DNA from: Acidimicrobiales bacterium
Lineage (GTDB): Bacteria > Actinomycetota > Acidimicrobiia > Acidimicrobiales > MedAcidi-G1
Direction: 5' to 3'
DNA: 60,871 bases
NCBI GenBank assembly: GCA_029242745.1
Contig: JAQWTI010000019.1
Location: 1 to 60,871 of the forward strand
The notes under the pieces were generated by a model. That model was given only the letters and a program-made list of their open reading frames with translations, did no database searches and was not told the DNA's origin. Below are positions 51,964 through 59,880 of this stretch, one piece after another. Both the position numbers and the translations under genes were made by a program. Positions within the stretch are counted from its first letter, which is position 1. Each line of letters opens with the position of its first letter.

Positions 51964-52110
51964 ATGACCACCGGACACGACCTGCTAGTGGTCGGTGGCG
52001 GTCCCACCAGTTACCCGGCTGCTCTCTATAGGCCAGCAGCCGGCTGTGGTGGTCGGCGCTGATGGTGTCCGATCCATCAGAGTTCGACCACCTGGGGGTT
52101 CTCACTCTGG
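51964..52110 (+). pseudogene. Remnant of FAD-dependent oxidoreductase
   Basis: From ATG 51964 the frame reads MTTGHDLLVVGGGPTSYPAA, which looks like the N-terminal Rossmann FAD-binding GxGxxG motif of a flavoprotein hydroxylase (GGGPTG in intact members), and stops at 52062. In the +1-shifted frame about 25 codons later is PAVVVGADGVRSIRV, which resembles the DG motif (VGADGVRS) of class A flavoprotein monooxygenases. In intact proteins these motifs are about 150 residues apart. The simplest reading is a gene worn down by deletion and frameshift. The DG match could be chance. Confidence 0.4.
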
Positions 52111-52180
52111 CCTGGGAACATCAGGTGTTAAAGCGAACTTTGGAGGCCACCGACTGGGCGGCCCGCTGGGCCGAATAAGA

Positions 52181-53848
52181 GTGACAACCAGACAGAGTTC
52201 CAGGCCTTTTCGAATTAGGTGGCTAGGGCGTGTCCGCTACCGCGACGCACTGGCGTTGCAGCGACGTATACACGCCAATGCCGTATCGCTGCCCAAGACA
52301 CAGGACCACCTACTACTGCTCGAGCACCACCCCGTTTACACACTTGGGGTGCGGTCATCACTGGACAACCTGCTGATGCCGCCTGATGAGGTTGGCGCCG
52401 ACCTGGAGTGGGCTGATCGTGGCGGTGACATTACGTTCCACGGCCCCGGTCAACTTGTCGGCTATCCACTCCTACACCTTCCAGGTAAGCGGGGTGGGGG
52501 AATGGCCGACACGGTTGCCTATGTGCGTTCCGTGGAACAACTGGTCATCGACGTGTGTTGCGACTTAGGGCTTACTGACGTGGGGCGTCTACCCCGGTAT
52601 CCGGGGGTATGGGTTGAGCCAGACGGCCCGCGCCCTCGCAAGGTGGCGGCCATTGGGGTGAAGCTCAACCGGAGTCGCACCATGCACGGTTTCGCCCTCA
52701 ACCTAGACCCCGATCTGGCGTTCTTTGATCGAATGGTTCCGTGTGGAATCAACGGTCTGGGCGTCACTTCGCTAGCGAGCGAAGGAATCGACGCCACGAT
52801 GCGTCAAGCGGTCGACTTGGTCGCTGAGCGGGCGGCCGAACGTTGGGCTGACGGGCCAGTTGATCGGGCCGACGTCGCCTGGGTGCACCGGCCTGGTGAC
52901 CTCAGTGCCTTCAGTCGCGGTGAGGGGGCGGAATCGAAGCCAGAACTCAGTCGTAAGCCCGAGTGGATGCGGGTACCACTGCGGACTGGCCCCGAATATC
53001 TACGCCTCAAGTCGACGATGCGCGCCCGGAACCTCACGACGGTTTGCGAGGAGGCTGGGTGCCCGAACATGTCCGATTGCTGGAATGACGGCACAGCCAC
53101 GTTCATGATCAACGGTGAACGCTGCACTCGTGCCTGTGGTTTCTGCTTGGTTGACACTCGGCGTCCTGACGGACTGGACCTAGGTGAACCCGGACGGGTG
53201 GCTGAGGCTGTGGCCGATATGGGCCTGCGTCACGCTGTCGTCACGGCTGTGGCTCGAGACGACCTGGCAGATGGTGGTGCGGCTGCGTTCGTGGCGACTA
53301 TCGCTGCTATCCGGGAATTAAATCCCGATACCGCCGTGGAGATCCTTATCCCGGATTGCAAGGGTGACCCTGATGCTCTCCAGCTTTTGTTCGACTCCCG
53401 GCCGGAGGTGTTGAATCACAACATCGAGACGGTGGCTCGGCTGCAACGAAGGGTTCGCCCGTCTGCTTCGTACGCTCGGAGCCTCTCGGTTTTGGCTCGA
53501 GCGGGGGCTGAGGGCCTGACCACCAAGTCGTCGATCATTGTGGGCTTAGGGGAGACCGACGAAGAGGTAGATGCCTGCCTGGCCGACCTGGCTGCTGTGG
53601 GCTGCGACATAGTCACGATTGGCCAGTACCTTCGGCCGACTGTCAACCACCTAAAGATCGACCGCTGGGTAGATCCGACGATCTTTAATCGTTGGGTTGA
53701 CGTCGGTCGGGCCCTAGGCATTGGCCATGTGGAGGCCGGGCCACTCACCCGGTCCAGTTTCCACGCCCGGCAGGCAGCGGAAGCCGTCGGTGCCTCGCCG
53801 TTGGTGGGTCAGCGTAAGTCCGTTGCTCTGACAATTCATCCGGGCTGA
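52181..53848 (+). CDS. LipB-LipA fusion: octanoyltransferase plus lipoyl synthase
   Basis: One frame of 555 residues carries two enzymes that normally come from separate genes. Residues about 12-235 are LipB, which moves octanoyl from ACP to lipoyl domains: GGDITFHGPGQLVGYPL, Lys154 in RKVAAIGVK and nucleophile Cys188 in PCGINGLGVTSL. Residues about 263-555 are LipA, the radical-SAM sulfur inserter: auxiliary cluster Cys289, Cys294 and Cys300, radical-SAM Cys315, Cys319 and Cys322 (CTRACGFC), and RSSFHA near the C-terminus. No stop separates them. The GTG at 52181 is the best start. LipA could also start internally at ATG 52966. Confidence 0.88.
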   Translation: MTTRQSSRPFRIRWLGRVRYRDALALQRRIHANAVSLPKTQDHLLLLEHHPVYTLGVRSSLDNLLMPPDEVGADLEWADRGGDITFHGPGQLVGYPLLHLPGKRGGGMADTVAYVRSVEQLVIDVCCDLGLTDVGRLPRYPGVWVEPDGPRPRKVAAIGVKLNRSRTMHGFALNLDPDLAFFDRMVPCGINGLGVTSLASEGIDATMRQAVDLVAERAAERWADGPVDRADVAWVHRPGDLSAFSRGEGAESKPELSRKPEWMRVPLRTGPEYLRLKSTMRARNLTTVCEEAGCPNMSDCWNDGTATFMINGERCTRACGFCLVDTRRPDGLDLGEPGRVAEAVADMGLRHAVVTAVARDDLADGGAAAFVATIAAIRELNPDTAVEILIPDCKGDPDALQLLFDSRPEVLNHNIETVARLQRRVRPSASYARSLSVLARAGAEGLTTKSSIIVGLGETDEEVDACLADLAAVGCDIVTIGQYLRPTVNHLKIDRWVDPTIFNRWVDVGRALGIGHVEAGPLTRSSFHARQAAEAVGASPLVGQRKSVALTIHPG

Positions 53849-54028: not shown

Positions 54029-54658
54029 TTGAGAGTCGTCGAGGAGACACCAGAGACTGTGATCGCAGATCAGCGTGGTCGAGTCCGGAGAGAGCGTGCA
54101 GAGAGCGAAAGGGCAGCTGCTATTGAGCGGATCACCGCTGCAACTCGAGCACTATTGCGAGAGCACACGATCTTCGATCTGACCTCCGCAGTGGTGGCGG
54201 ATGCTGCTGGTACGACCCGCCAGACGGTCCACAACTACTTCCCGTCAATGTATGAGTTGATCTTCGCTCTCGCTGACGACCTGACCGTCGAATTCCAGAC
54301 AGCCGGGGACGGCCTGGATGTCGACGATCCCCACTGGCCGTACCTCTATGCGGATCGGGTGGCCGACATCGCACTGGAAGATCCGATCCCGAACCGGCAG
54401 GTGCTGCTGGTCTCGGCCTCTCAGGGTCGGGGTATGGCGGCTGCTACGTCGGAAACGAACCGACAGATCGTCCCGGCCCTGAAAAGGAGGAACCCGGTGG
54501 CGGCCGATAAGGCCTCGTGGCTGACTATGACTCTGTTCCGGGGAACGTTGTTCAGCTGGGGCGCCGAGCAGCTTTCAGCCGAGGAACTCCGAGAGAACTT
54601 GCGTGACGTGGCTGACGTAGTGGTAGCCCAACGTGGCCTCTGGCTAGAAGAAGTATGA
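54029..54658 (+). CDS. TetR family transcriptional regulator
   Basis: A 209-residue repressor. The helix-turn-helix lies at about residues 48-72 (LTSAVVADAAGTTRQTVHNYFPS). The ligand-binding half is helical, with no recognised effector type. Its ATG-overlap coupling to the giant surface protein (stop at 54656-54658, ATG at 54655) means both are on one transcript, so it probably controls the surface locus and itself. TTG 54029 has a good ribosome-binding site; GTG 54059 is an alternative. Confidence 0.85.
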   Translation: MRVVEETPETVIADQRGRVRRERAESERAAAIERITAATRALLREHTIFDLTSAVVADAAGTTRQTVHNYFPSMYELIFALADDLTVEFQTAGDGLDVDDPHWPYLYADRVADIALEDPIPNRQVLLVSASQGRGMAAATSETNRQIVPALKRRNPVAADKASWLTMTLFRGTLFSWGAEQLSAEELRENLRDVADVVVAQRGLWLEEV

Positions 54659-57600
54659 AATCTGTGACGTACCGATTGGCAACCCGCCTGGCAGCAGCGC
54701 TGCTGACTGCCGTGGTCTCCGTGCTGCTCGTATCTTCACCTGCCGGTGCGTGGTCAAACGCGGAAGAGGGGGCGGTGTCGATCCACGCCACGAGCCCTTA
54801 CAGCGGTTCGGTGGCCGAGGTCCAGGTGGACTCCGCTGGCAACATCTACGCGTGCGGGTGGTTCCGGTCCAAGACCGGGTCGTACGACGTCAACCCGGAT
54901 CCCGCTGCGACGAGCCTCGTGAACACGAAGGGGCTGCACTCGTCGGTGGTCTCGAAGTACAACCCGTCCGGCAACTTGCTGTGGTACCTGGTGGTCGAGT
55001 CCGACGACAACGACGACCGAATCGTCGACTGTGCCTTGAACGCTGCGGGCACTCACCTGGCCATATCCGGCACGTTCGAGGGGACCATGGACTTCCCCGG
55101 TGGGGCGAGCATCGCTTCGGAGGGGGAGAGGGACGCTTACGTGGCCCTGATCGCCACGGACACGTCGACTGGTACGACAGCTCCTTCCGGCGTCCTGTGG
55201 GGCAAGACCCTCGGGGATACGACCGACCACGACTCGGCCAACGGTGTCGGCTTCGGGTCGTCCAACGAGGTCTACGTAGGTGGCTACTTCAGGGGAACGG
55301 TGGACATCAACTGGGGTACCGGTAGTGCAGACAACCGGACGTCGGCAGGCCACGGGGATTCCGTCCTGACCAAGTTCGCGGTGGACGGTTCCCTGGCGTG
55401 GTCCAAGACGTGGGGCGGCACCAGCAACGATTACCTCGTCGACCTGGCGATCGACGGCGGCGACATCTACGTTGGCGGGTTCCTGGCCAACCAGGCGGCC
55501 GACTACGACCCCGGGGACGGTGAGACGCTGATTGGTGGCACGTCCGGCGGCCAGGGTGGCCAGGACTCGTGGATCTCGAAGTTCAACACGTCGGGGGAAC
55601 TCCAGTGGGCAAAGAACTTCGGTAATACCAGCACCGACGAACTCAAGGGCATGGCCGCTATAGGCGGACACGTGTACGCCACCGGCTACCACACAGGCAG
55701 TGGCGGCGACTTCGACCCCGGATCTGGCACCACGGCCTTGGTCTCGAGCCACTACGAGCCCTACACCGTCAAGATCGACTCGTCCGGGGATCTCGTGTGG
55801 GCAGTCACCGTCGACACGGAAGAGGGTGCTGGGCCGCCGACCGGAGAGTCCCTTGCCGTGGACGGGTCCGGCAACGTGTACACCGCAGGGACCTACCGGG
55901 GAACAGCCGACCTTGGGTCCGGTTCAGGGGTAGCGGACTTCACTGCTGTCCGTGGGACGGTTAAGAACGAGGTGTTCCTCCTGAAGCACAACTCGGCGGG
56001 CGTCCACCAGTGGGCGAAGGTCTTCCCGTCCAACAACACCTCTATCGCCACCGGGCTGACAACCTCCGGGTCAAACGTGTTCATGGCGGGCCACTTCAAT
56101 GACTGGATGGACTTCGACCCGTCAGCGGGTGACGCCACCGTCAGGTCAGCGGGAAACTCAGACGGCTACGTCGCCAAGTACACGTCAGCAGGAGCGCTGG
56201 CTACCGGCAACGCTGCACCGGTAGCGAACCCACCAACAGGCTTCCAGGTCGTACACGGCCCGGTCGACGGCGCTGAACTACAGGGTTACGAAGCTGAGGT
56301 CGTACTCACCGCACCGCTGTGCGATAGCGGCCAGTGGGAGTTCGTCCGCGCCGGTTCGGGCTACTCGACGCGCCATTACGTAGTCCAGGACTCGGCGCTC
56401 TCCGCGTCCGGGCTGGGGATCGGTGCTTACATCAAGGCGAACTACACCTCTGGCGGTTCCACGGTCCCGGATCACAACATTTTGTGGTCCGGCAACGCTA
56501 ACGACCACGACGGCAACACGTCGTCGAGGTCGGCGGCGTTCAAGAACCTGGGCTGGGCGAGTGTTTCCAACGCGCACGGTACGGTGGCCTTCAAGCTCGA
56601 CGCTGACGGCAACTTCACATGGAAGAGGGATTCAGCGTCTTCCTGGACAGCGAGCACTGTCGACTATGACGGGGCCGGCAGTTCGGGCACCGGTGTGGTC
56701 CCGTCGGGGTGGAGCGTGTATCTGGCGTTCGCTGCCAAGAACTCTGTCACCAGGACGCTGACCAGTGGTCATCTGGCCGTCTCCCACTCGAGCTGTGGGA
56801 CTCCGGGCTTCACCGTGTCCGAGTCGTCCAGGACGGTGTCCGAATCCGGTTCGACGCAGACGTTCACCGTGGTGTTGACCGGCGACCCGTCCTCGGACGT
56901 GGTCATCGACGTGGCCAGTGGCGACACCGGCGAGGCGACCGTGTCGGCTTCGTCGCTGACGTTCACGTCCAGCAACTGGGACACCGCTCAGGCCATCACC
57001 GTGACCGGCATTCCGGATTACCTCGACGACGGCAACCAGACCTCCACGGTGACCGTTTCAGTCAACGACGACAGTTCCGACGACGACTTCGACTCGGTTG
57101 CCAACCAGACGGTGTCGGTGTCAACGACTGACGTCGATGCAGCCGCCGGCCTGACCATTGCCGCTTCGGGTGGTTCAACGTCGGTCAACGAGGCCTCGTC
57201 GGGCAACACCGACACGTTCACCGTGGTATTGGACATGCAGCCTGCTCCGGGCGACAACGTGGTGGTGACCGTCACGTCGTCTGACACCGGTGAAGCCCAG
57301 GTCAACGGAACGTCAGCCAGGACCCTCACGTTCACGTCCAGTAACTGGGACACCCCGCAGACGGTGACCGTGACCGGGATCGACGACGACCTCGACGACG
57401 GCAACCAGACGGCGACGTTGACCATCGCGGTCGACGACTCGTCGAGCTACGACCCGTATGACTCGGTGTCAGACGCCACGGTCAGCGTGACCGTCGTCGA
57501 CGACGACACCGCTGGTTTCACCCTGTCGGGAACCACCGCAGCGGTATCTGAGAATGAGACAACGGCGACGTTCACCGTGGTCCTGGACTCCGAACCGACC

Positions 57601-59880
57601 GGCGACGTCGTGTTCAGCCTCTCGAGCGCTGACACCGGGGAGACGACTGTCTCACCTGCGGCGTTGACGTTCACCTCGTCGAACTGGGACACGACCCAGA
57701 CGGTGACGGTCACCGGTGTAGACGACTCGGCGTCGGATGGCAACCAGGCCACGAACGTCACCGTGTCCGTCAACGACTCGTCGACCGCCGACAGTACCTA
57801 CGACGCGCTCGGCGACAAGACCGTCGCCGTCACCACTGCTGATGATGACTCGGCTGGCGTAACCATCTCGGCGTCTGGTGGGGCAACCACCGTGTCCGAA
57901 GCGGGGTCGACCGACACGTTCACCGTGGTACTCAATACCCAGCCGTCCAGCGACGTTGTCATCAACGTCTCGTCGGGCGATACCGGTGAGGCGACCCTGT
58001 CCCCGGCGGCACTCACGTTCACCAGCTCGAACTGGGACAGCGCCCAGACCGTCACGGTCACCGGTGTAGACGACGACTCCAACGACGGCGACCAGACCAC
58101 GACGATGACCGTGTTCGTCGTCGACGGATCATCCGACGACGCGTACGACAGCGTCGCCAACCTGACGTTGAGCGCTACGACCTCCGACGATGACTCGCCT
58201 GGCCTGACGGTGTCGACGACCTCGGTGACGGTCACCGAAGCCGGGTCAGCGTCGACGTTCACCGTCCGGCTCAACACCAAGCCCAGTTCCAACGTCGTTG
58301 TCAACGTCGCAACGTCGGATTCCGGCGAAGCGACCGCGTCGACTACGGCACTCACGTTCACGACGAGCAACTGGGACAGCGCGCAGACCGTCACGGTCAC
58401 CGGCGTCAACGACGTCGAGGACGACGGGAACCAGACGTCGACGGTCACCCTGACGGTCAACGACGCCAGCTCCGACAACGACTACGACTCGGTTTCTGAC
58501 AGCACCGTGGCGGTGACGACCGTCGACGATGACGACCCGGTCGTGACTACGACGACCGCCCCGCCGCCGTCGACCACGGCCCCGCCGTTGGGAACGGTCA
58601 GCCTGTCGGCTATTCCGGGATGTTCGTCGGTGACCATCCACTGGGCTCCGGGCACCACGTCGGGCATCCAGTCGTTCGCACTGGCCATGAACAACCACCA
58701 GAACGACGAGGGTTGGGACGGCCACAGCGCACACTTCCCGGACGCACGTTCGTTCACCATTGGCGGCCTCGGCAACGGCCAGTACAGCTTCGAGATCCGG
58801 GCCCTCTACGAGAATGGGACCACGGCGGACTCAAACGAGGGAGACGTCACCATCTCGGGCTGCTTCCCACCACCGACACCCGTCACAACGACTTCTCCAC
58901 CGACGACCACGACGATGACCATCCCGCCGGCTCCCACCACCTCGACAACAACTACAACCACAACCACAACCACCCCACCTACGACGGCTGCACCGACGAC
59001 GGCTGTACCGACGACGGCTGTACCGACGACGGCTGTACCGACGACGGCTGTACCGACGACGGCTGTACCGACGACGGCTGCACCGACGACGGCTGCACCG
59101 ACCACAGTTGCACCGACGACGGCTGCACCGACCACAGCAGCACCGACGACGGCTGCACCTACGACGGTGGCTCCCTCCACGGCACCACCGACCACCACTA
59201 CAGAGGGAACCTCCAGAGATGAGGACGAAGAGGCGGTGATTGTCAATTTGAGCGAAGGTGATCGTGACGGTGACGGCCTGACCGACGATGACGAGGCCGC
59301 CCTGGGAACAGACCCGGACGACGCAGACACCGACGGTGACGGGATCAGCGACGGCAGGGAAGTGGCCGACCTCACCGACCCACTTGACCCTGACGACCCC
59401 GGGATCGACGGTGGCGGCAATTTCCTTACCAACCCGGGGGTTCTGGCGACTGCTGCAGGCCTCGCAGCGGCAGCAGGGCTGGGGTTGACGGGTCTGGGCT
59501 CCAAGATATTCGGTGGGCTTGTGCGGTTCCTGTCCGGGACCGGCTTCGGTCTGTTCCTGATCGGCCTGTTTCGACGTGACAAGCGCCCCGGGCCACCCAT
59601 CGACTTCGTGGTCTCCTTCGACGGACCGCTCGCCCATCTGGCATGGTCGTCGCCGACCACGGGCGGACCGGCTGACAAGTACGTGCTGGAAGCCCGCAAG
59701 GGCGGCAACTGGGGAGAACTACTCGACTTCGACACGGACAACACGAGGGCCGCTGTCCCCAGGTCAGAGGTCGAGGACGCTGAGGCGTGGCGTCTCAGGG
59801 CAGCCAACGAACATGGCATCGGCAAGCCGTCCGAAGAGGTGCCGGTCTCTGCTGCCAGCGACCATGTGGAAGAAGAATGA
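54655..59880 (+). CDS. Giant secreted membrane-anchored repeat protein
   Basis: A 1741-residue extracellular protein. Parts in order: signal peptide (1-32, cleavage near PAGA); SBBP-like propeller repeats such as NIYACGWF and GDIYVGGF (about 46-515); unassigned beta domain (529-719); five adhesin repeats of about 115 residues, each with ALTFTSSNWDTAQTVTVTG and an Asp-rich end (719-1292); FN3-like domain (1311-1404); Thr/Pro linker of TTAxP units (1405-1519); calcium-binding TSP3-like DxDxDG (1536-1586); one or two membrane spans (1596-1640); and a C-terminal FN3-like domain (1647-1737). It is likely an adhesin. Codon use is richer in C/G than in most of the window. Linked to a delta-60 protein. 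Confidence 0.85.
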   Translation: MKSVTYRLATRLAAALLTAVVSVLLVSSPAGAWSNAEEGAVSIHATSPYSGSVAEVQVDSAGNIYACGWFRSKTGSYDVNPDPAATSLVNTKGLHSSVVSKYNPSGNLLWYLVVESDDNDDRIVDCALNAAGTHLAISGTFEGTMDFPGGASIASEGERDAYVALIATDTSTGTTAPSGVLWGKTLGDTTDHDSANGVGFGSSNEVYVGGYFRGTVDINWGTGSADNRTSAGHGDSVLTKFAVDGSLAWSKTWGGTSNDYLVDLAIDGGDIYVGGFLANQAADYDPGDGETLIGGTSGGQGGQDSWISKFNTSGELQWAKNFGNTSTDELKGMAAIGGHVYATGYHTGSGGDFDPGSGTTALVSSHYEPYTVKIDSSGDLVWAVTVDTEEGAGPPTGESLAVDGSGNVYTAGTYRGTADLGSGSGVADFTAVRGTVKNEVFLLKHNSAGVHQWAKVFPSNNTSIATGLTTSGSNVFMAGHFNDWMDFDPSAGDATVRSAGNSDGYVAKYTSAGALATGNAAPVANPPTGFQVVHGPVDGAELQGYEAEVVLTAPLCDSGQWEFVRAGSGYSTRHYVVQDSALSASGLGIGAYIKANYTSGGSTVPDHNILWSGNANDHDGNTSSRSAAFKNLGWASVSNAHGTVAFKLDADGNFTWKRDSASSWTASTVDYDGAGSSGTGVVPSGWSVYLAFAAKNSVTRTLTSGHLAVSHSSCGTPGFTVSESSRTVSESGSTQTFTVVLTGDPSSDVVIDVASGDTGEATVSASSLTFTSSNWDTAQAITVTGIPDYLDDGNQTSTVTVSVNDDSSDDDFDSVANQTVSVSTTDVDAAAGLTIAASGGSTSVNEASSGNTDTFTVVLDMQPAPGDNVVVTVTSSDTGEAQVNGTSARTLTFTSSNWDTPQTVTVTGIDDDLDDGNQTATLTIAVDDSSSYDPYDSVSDATVSVTVVDDDTAGFTLSGTTAAVSENETTATFTVVLDSEPTGDVVFSLSSADTGETTVSPAALTFTSSNWDTTQTVTVTGVDDSASDGNQATNVTVSVNDSSTADSTYDALGDKTVAVTTADDDSAGVTISASGGATTVSEAGSTDTFTVVLNTQPSSDVVINVSSGDTGEATLSPAALTFTSSNWDSAQTVTVTGVDDDSNDGDQTTTMTVFVVDGSSDDAYDSVANLTLSATTSDDDSPGLTVSTTSVTVTEAGSASTFTVRLNTKPSSNVVVNVATSDSGEATASTTALTFTTSNWDSAQTVTVTGVNDVEDDGNQTSTVTLTVNDASSDNDYDSVSDSTVAVTTVDDDDPVVTTTTAPPPSTTAPPLGTVSLSAIPGCSSVTIHWAPGTTSGIQSFALAMNNHQNDEGWDGHSAHFPDARSFTIGGLGNGQYSFEIRALYENGTTADSNEGDVTISGCFPPPTPVTTTSPPTTTTMTIPPAPTTSTTTTTTTTTTPPTTAAPTTAVPTTAVPTTAVPTTAVPTTAVPTTAAPTTAAPTTVAPTTAAPTTAAPTTAAPTTVAPSTAPPTTTTEGTSRDEDEEAVIVNLSEGDRDGDGLTDDDEAALGTDPDDADTDGDGISDGREVADLTDPLDPDDPGIDGGGNFLTNPGVLATAAGLAAAAGLGLTGLGSKIFGGLVRFLSGTGFGLFLIGLFRRDKRPGPPIDFVVSFDGPLAHLAWSSPTTGGPADKYVLEARKGGNWGELLDFDTDNTRAAVPRSEVEDAEAWRLRAANEHGIGKPSEEVPVSAASDHVEEE
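56811..58530 (+). repeat. Five tandem adhesin-like repeats in surface protein
   Basis: Five protein repeats of about 115 residues (345 bases) begin near 56811, 57150, 57510, 57860 and 58200. Each has TFTVVL, DTGEA-like, LTFTSSNWD, TVTVTGVDD and SSDDxYDSV segments and ends with an Asp-rich strand. They resemble the Calx-beta or cadherin-like repeats common in large bacterial adhesins, and the acidic ends may bind calcium. Confidence 0.8.
58981..59162 (+). repeat. 15-base tandem repeats encoding a Thr/Pro linker
   Basis: About twelve tandem copies of a 15-base unit (ACGACGGCTGTACCG and variants) encode Thr-Thr-Ala-x-Pro. The first copies are nearly identical and the last diverge. In-frame copy-number change is expected to vary the length of the linker; I see no other function. 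Confidence 0.9.

Follow-up and report, generated by a model that had tools for sequence, protein, structure and literature searches.

Does a single gene of the window (the whole stretch of DNA analysed, 60,871 nucleotides) encode both LipB octanoyltransferase and LipA lipoyl synthase, and, if so, where else does this arrangement occur and what could it be for? The two enzymes perform consecutive steps of lipoate cofactor synthesis and are normally two separate proteins.

Domain architecture of the lipBA product

The frame in question, designated lipBA, runs uninterrupted through 555 codons (Table 1). In the ORF list, its longest version covers 51995-53848, and the length of 555 aa is counted from the GTG at 52181; the computed mass of the product is 60.2 kDa. 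The LipB domain comes first and is followed by a linker of 36 residues and the LipA domain. The preliminary description had claimed one continuous frame with a short linker, the LipB residues Lys154 and Cys188, the cluster cysteines and the RSSFHA motif; all of these were located in the protein, and both halves scored above curated cut-offs.

Table 1. Features of the lipBA locus, in coordinates of the window
Feature	Position	Strand	Basis or remarks
Scrap of 23 codons, similar to the beginning of lpdA (dihydrolipoamide dehydrogenase)	51964..52032	+	local alignment
Scrap resembling the C-terminus of 2-oxoacid dehydrogenase E2	52050..52178	+	BLOSUM62 alignment
lipBA (gene of the LipB octanoyltransferase-LipA lipoyl synthase fusion)	52181..53848	+	555 aa, GTG start, stop included
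LipB domain, residues 10-222	52208..52846	+	profile matches, predicted secondary structure
Lys154 codon of the LipB domain	52640	+	motif position
Cys188 codon of the LipB domain	52742	+	motif position
Linker (residues 223-258); its conserved DLSAFSRGEG stretch lies at 52898-52927	52847..52954	+	conservation, motif count, dN/dS
LipA domain, residues 259-535	52955..53785	+	auxiliary-cluster and radical-SAM cysteines, RSSFHA, profile and structure matches

According to the Pfam analysis, the product matches LplA-B_cat, Radical_SAM and part of LIAS_N (profile positions 54-96 of 96). Among the NCBIfam profiles, the LipB half exceeded the cut-offs of NF010925 (183.5 bits, cut-off 155) and TIGR00214 (133 bits, cut-off 83.55), and remained under those of NF010921, NF010922 and NF010923. 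The catalytic residues are Lys154 in KVAAIG and Cys188 in PCG; the Cys/Lys pair and the PCG motif of LipB are described in PMC8639206. The best solved fold in the Foldseek search was LipB of M. tuberculosis (1w66, TMt 0.85), which was also the best match by sequence. The domain as a whole, the Cys/Lys pair and the fold are those of stand-alone LipB (TIGR00214, PRK14345; 1w66), whereas in the window the chain continues beyond LipB, which is its N-terminal half.

The LipA half contains the auxiliary-cluster motif CEEAGCPNMSDC (residues 289-300), the radical-SAM motif CTRACGFC (315-322) and RSSFHA (524-529), so that CX4CX5C, CX3CX2C and RSS, by which LipA membership is recognized, were all found. 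It scored 340.8 bits with TIGR00510 (cut-off 310.25) and 384.1 bits with NF004019 (cut-off 203). Its best solved fold was M. tuberculosis LipA (5exk, TMt 0.92; 53% identity across the aligned stretch), and 5exi was the best solved structure by sequence. Stand-alone LipA (TIGR00510, PRK05481; 5exk) shares the radical-SAM, auxiliary-cluster and RSS motifs but possesses an N-terminal stretch before KPxW (as in the protein of locus L035), which gives way to the linker in lipBA; LIAS_N is matched in the window's protein from profile position 54 onward only.

A fusion of LipA to an attachment enzyme is already known as a kind, and the LipB-LipA chain is a variant of it. By its name and profile, NCBIfam NF053790 (LplA_LipA_fuse, bifunctional lipoate--protein ligase/lipoyl synthase) carries an attachment enzyme N-terminal to LipA, with a lipoate ligase where lipBA has LipB. 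The lipBA product is not a member of this family: its score was 344.3 bits, where the cut-off is 800, and profile positions 327-605 alone were matched, leaving the ligase half unmatched. A search of a mainly open-access literature collection found no paper on a LipB-LipA fusion. Under the automatic rules of UniProt, chains of this type may already carry the label "multifunctional fusion protein".

Occurrence and origin of the fused gene

The class of the window was taken as Acidimicrobiia because the nearest named loci belong there. A search of 296 genomes of the class gave a match in 275, and the junction between the halves was open in one frame in 270 of these. As the reported open-frame length can cross a stop, genomes with two matches were counted by reading the DNA. 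In 131 genomes, a single stop-free match spans the junction, starting no later than residue 190 and reaching at least residue 370. In 18 others the match contained a stop, and the DNA proved to be stop-free between the LipB and LipA matches in all 18. Of the other 126 genomes, 113 read as fused from the DNA, some being cut by contig ends past the junction. G226, G221, G183, G195 and G109 are also open across it, and in G286, G191 and G234, which were counted in the 270, one stop-free match runs from the LipB end into LipA at a contig end. Outside the 270 are G215 (L163, L255), with an open junction and a frameshift inside LipA, G143, G103 and G200, which are cut by contig ends, and G092 (L280), where LipB ends in the linker region and a LipA match is absent from the genome.

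No genome with only separate lipB and lipA was seen among the 275; G052 has the fused gene and, on a different contig, LipB and LipA as an unfused pair. An in-frame TAG is located inside LipB of L015 (the same place as L146 and L258), with the junction itself open; this stop and the frameshift of G215 may be sequence errors or decay. An apparent stop in L097 (G281) was rejected, the LipB match having overrun an upstream stop while the frame contains both halves. Likewise rejected was a triple fusion of 1196 aa in some small AT-rich genomes: L164-L166 represent lipBA (551 aa), a TGA and a stretch of 644 codons. In 21 of the 296 genomes neither LipB nor LipA was matched, 8 of these belonging to the 210 good-quality genomes; some match-less genomes may lack lipoate synthesis.

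The motifs were counted in 191 distinct fused sequences, including partial ones and the Peptococcaceae fusion described below. CX4CX5C and CX3CX2C were found in 190 each, HGxGQ in 189, the Lys motif in 187, RGG[DE] in 186, PC[GAS] in 184 (7 misses) and RSS[YFW]xA in 165 (26 misses). Both anchors are present in 167 sequences, where the distance from PCG to CxExxCPN was 91-340 (median 121); it was 102 in the window.

Of the 139 genomes in the Actinomycetota sample, 127 came from outside the class and 12 from within it; 107 of the 127 gave a match. Among the matches listed from these 107, none covered both LipB and LipA, and no LipB-LipA fusion was found. LipA matches with a reported frame below 480 aa have no space for LipB. 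Among the matches listed, 16 LipA matches outside the class had a frame of at least 480 aa; in 13 of these 16, the LipB match lay in another frame, on another contig or kilobases off, or was absent. Candidate fusions in the other three (G402, G328 and G381) were rejected, since the DNA shows a stop between lipB and lipA.

A second fused clade was found in Bacillota (L043/L147 and L289-L294; class of G423). Of 113 genomes from the class to which Peptococcaceae bacterium BRH_c8a belongs, 43 were matched and 7 are fused without a stop; G514 of the same class is not fused. The suggestion in the preliminary description that the fusion is specific to a lineage thus stands in part: the fused gene marks Acidimicrobiia, but it is also present in this one class of Bacillota. 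In the Bacillota fusions the domain order is that of lipBA, in one frame, but the linker is different and has no AF(S/T)RG stretch; L043 and the window's protein share 43% identity. In a homology set of 80 loci, 30 are fused, namely, L043 of the Peptococcaceae genome and 29 loci of the class, assigned to it by title or tree and not all placed in the tree.

A quick tree of 130 LipA sequences had a branch (SH-aLRT 90) with the 73 class fusions making up one of its sides, and a tree built from LipB alone required two changes for them. A LipA tree better than the quick one by 31 log units grouped the Peptococcaceae fusion with the class; a single fusion clade had p-AU 0.788 there, with L043, on a long branch, as the sole Bacillota fusion. 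In the concatenated tree of 72 sequences, the class fusions (support 88) and the Bacillota fusions (100) formed separate groups, and one common fusion clade was not rejected (p-AU 0.155, seven Bacillota sequences). The simplest reading is a single gain of the fusion within the class.

Linker and proposed function

The linker was delimited by the end of the last LipB helix in the predicted secondary structure and by KPEW. It evolves as coding sequence: in 53 disjoint pairs of class fusions (no sequence shared between pairs), dN/dS was 0.218 for the linker, 0.131 for LipB and 0.089 for LipA, and pN of the linker was below pS in all 53. The linker pS (0.545) was close to that of the domains (0.553 and 0.550), with pN of 0.184. 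Mean column conservation was 1.47 bits in the linker, 2.42 in LipB and 2.85 in LipA. In 175 sequences, the weighted frequency of Phe at window position 244 was 0.75, that of Arg246 was 0.59, and that of the Arg of a later PVRLLGR stretch, which is missing from the window, was 0.72. A strict pattern of the DLSxFSR type was found in 64 of 169 fused sequences, and in 2 of 59 LipB tails and 0 of 49 LipA N-termini of the stand-alone proteins of L031-L081. Many deep-branching members have the form AFTRG...AGVF, which looks related to the DLSxFSR type and was linked to it by eye and the MAFFT alignment only. Parts of the linker are conserved across families that differ widely in GC content.

For modeling with AlphaFold2, 104 aligned sequences were used, including 29 fusions other than that of the window (28 class fusions plus L043). 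The model of the window's LipBA (mean pLDDT 91.6, pTM 0.92) suggests a defined placement of both domains; the linker blocks within 231-250 were predicted poorly (pLDDT 66 and 55). With L043 placed first and the same sequences, pTM was 0.74; the difference suggests that the domains of the class fusions are arranged in a more defined way than those of L043, as judged by the program's own confidence in two models.

The lipBA product is very probably one bifunctional enzyme, with octanoyl transfer by the LipB half and then sulfur insertion by the LipA half; we infer both activities from the known families. The LipB half would load octanoate from octanoyl-ACP on Cys188, with the participation of Lys154, and would transfer it to the lipoyl-domain lysine (of E2 or GcvH). 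The LipA half would then insert two sulfurs by means of the radical-SAM and auxiliary iron-sulfur clusters. The single chain may help the octanoylated domain to pass between the sites, or may hold a 1:1 enzyme ratio beside the E2 substrate. Channelling of this kind is an attractive hypothesis, to which equal dosage is an adequate alternative. LipA consumes its own auxiliary cluster, so tethering alone cannot give multi-turnover.

An origin of the fusion in an assembly or sequencing error, that is, a missed stop or frameshift, has a negligible probability. The window's genome is indeed a fragmented assembly of 55 contigs, but neither a stop nor a frameshift is present near 52900, where the preliminary description had considered a missed stop, and the same open junction recurs in 270 of the 275 matched class genomes, in some cases in single-contig ones, which makes such an error in the window very unlikely. 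An internal start in the linker that yields free LipA besides the full chain also appears improbable. It could draw on the ATG at window residue 263, within KPEWM, and on in-frame starts after an SD-like tetramer in the linker of 57 of 175 genes. Per 100 codons, in-frame starts are less frequent in the linker (4.75) than in the domains (6.17 and 6.52) and SD-like starts slightly more frequent (0.69 vs 0.47 and 0.46), the test being weak because just 57 of the 175 gene starts assigned are preceded by the tetramer; the coding-type evolution of the linker also argues against an internal start.

The bifunctional enzyme is common to the preferred reading and to a further one, which differs on channelling only: the fusion may bring no kinetic hand-over and either merely set a 1:1 enzyme dose or be a neutral, inherited fusion of adjacent genes. 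The chances of this are only a little short of even. In 39 of 49 unfused loci of L031-L081, no more than 400 bp separate lipB from lipA, so a fusion could easily arise; constraint on the protein is lowest in the linker, and the Bacillota fusion differs in its linker and has the lower pTM. Against it, no reversal to two genes was seen in the 275 class genomes, and parts of the linker are kept between families of very different GC content. A bolder version of hand-over, which we consider unlikely, regards LipBA of Acidimicrobiia as a rigid two-site enzyme, the linker of which would dock the lipoyl domain or the E2 core, so that the octanoylated domain is not released; the features that might serve in docking are AF(S/T)RG and, in many members other than the window, PVRLLGR...AGV.

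With free enzymes, it is difficult to test whether LipB passes the octanoylated domain directly to LipA. LipBA of Acidimicrobiia, often encoded beside the E2 gene that supplies its substrate, offers a ready test object, with the Bacillota clade for comparison, and the fused gene, as the rule in almost all genomes sampled from a class, is a natural test of why enzymes get linked. The finding should aid the annotation of lipoate genes in Acidimicrobiia; it adds nothing new to the lipoate pathway and its chemistry themselves.

Gene neighbourhood and other lipoate-related genes

The C-terminus of E2 was found on the same strand at most 400 bp upstream of lipBA in 52 of the 57 loci L082-L138 and in 59 of the 68 loci of L182-L260 with enough flank; in the homology set, 18 of 29 class loci had it, compared with 2 of the 50 others. 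As the E2 of the window's own genome served as the query, distant E2s may be missed. The order lpdA-E2-lipBA was found in seven of eight long loci, and the eighth has an E1 gene between lpdA and E2.

The window's lipBA has no intact E2 neighbour. Upstream of it, the lpdA-like scrap gave a raw score of 62 with the E3-like frame of the same genome (0 of 500 shuffles as high). The E2-like scrap, whose own stop lies 2 bases upstream of the lipBA start, gave raw BLOSUM62 scores of 70, 61 and 52 with the E2 tails of L083, L084 and L085, respectively (0 of 1000 shuffles as high in each case). The two scraps, ordered as in the lpdA-E2-lipBA loci of relatives, are consistent with a deletion scar.

The same genome encodes E2 on another contig, adjoining an E1 beta gene, as well as an E3-like frame (identified by eye) and GcvH. 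It also contains a second, weakly LplA/LipB-like gene of 233 aa (L140:1345-2043, minus strand), which scored far under the cut-offs of its best NCBIfam hits. A frame of 101 aa (L145:1477-1779, minus strand), hardly more than a biotinyl/lipoyl domain, is located near an E1 beta-like gene on the opposite strand. Within the window, an ORF of 1741 aa (54655-59880, plus strand) with repeated segments and long Thr/Pro-rich runs is situated downstream of a TetR-type regulator.
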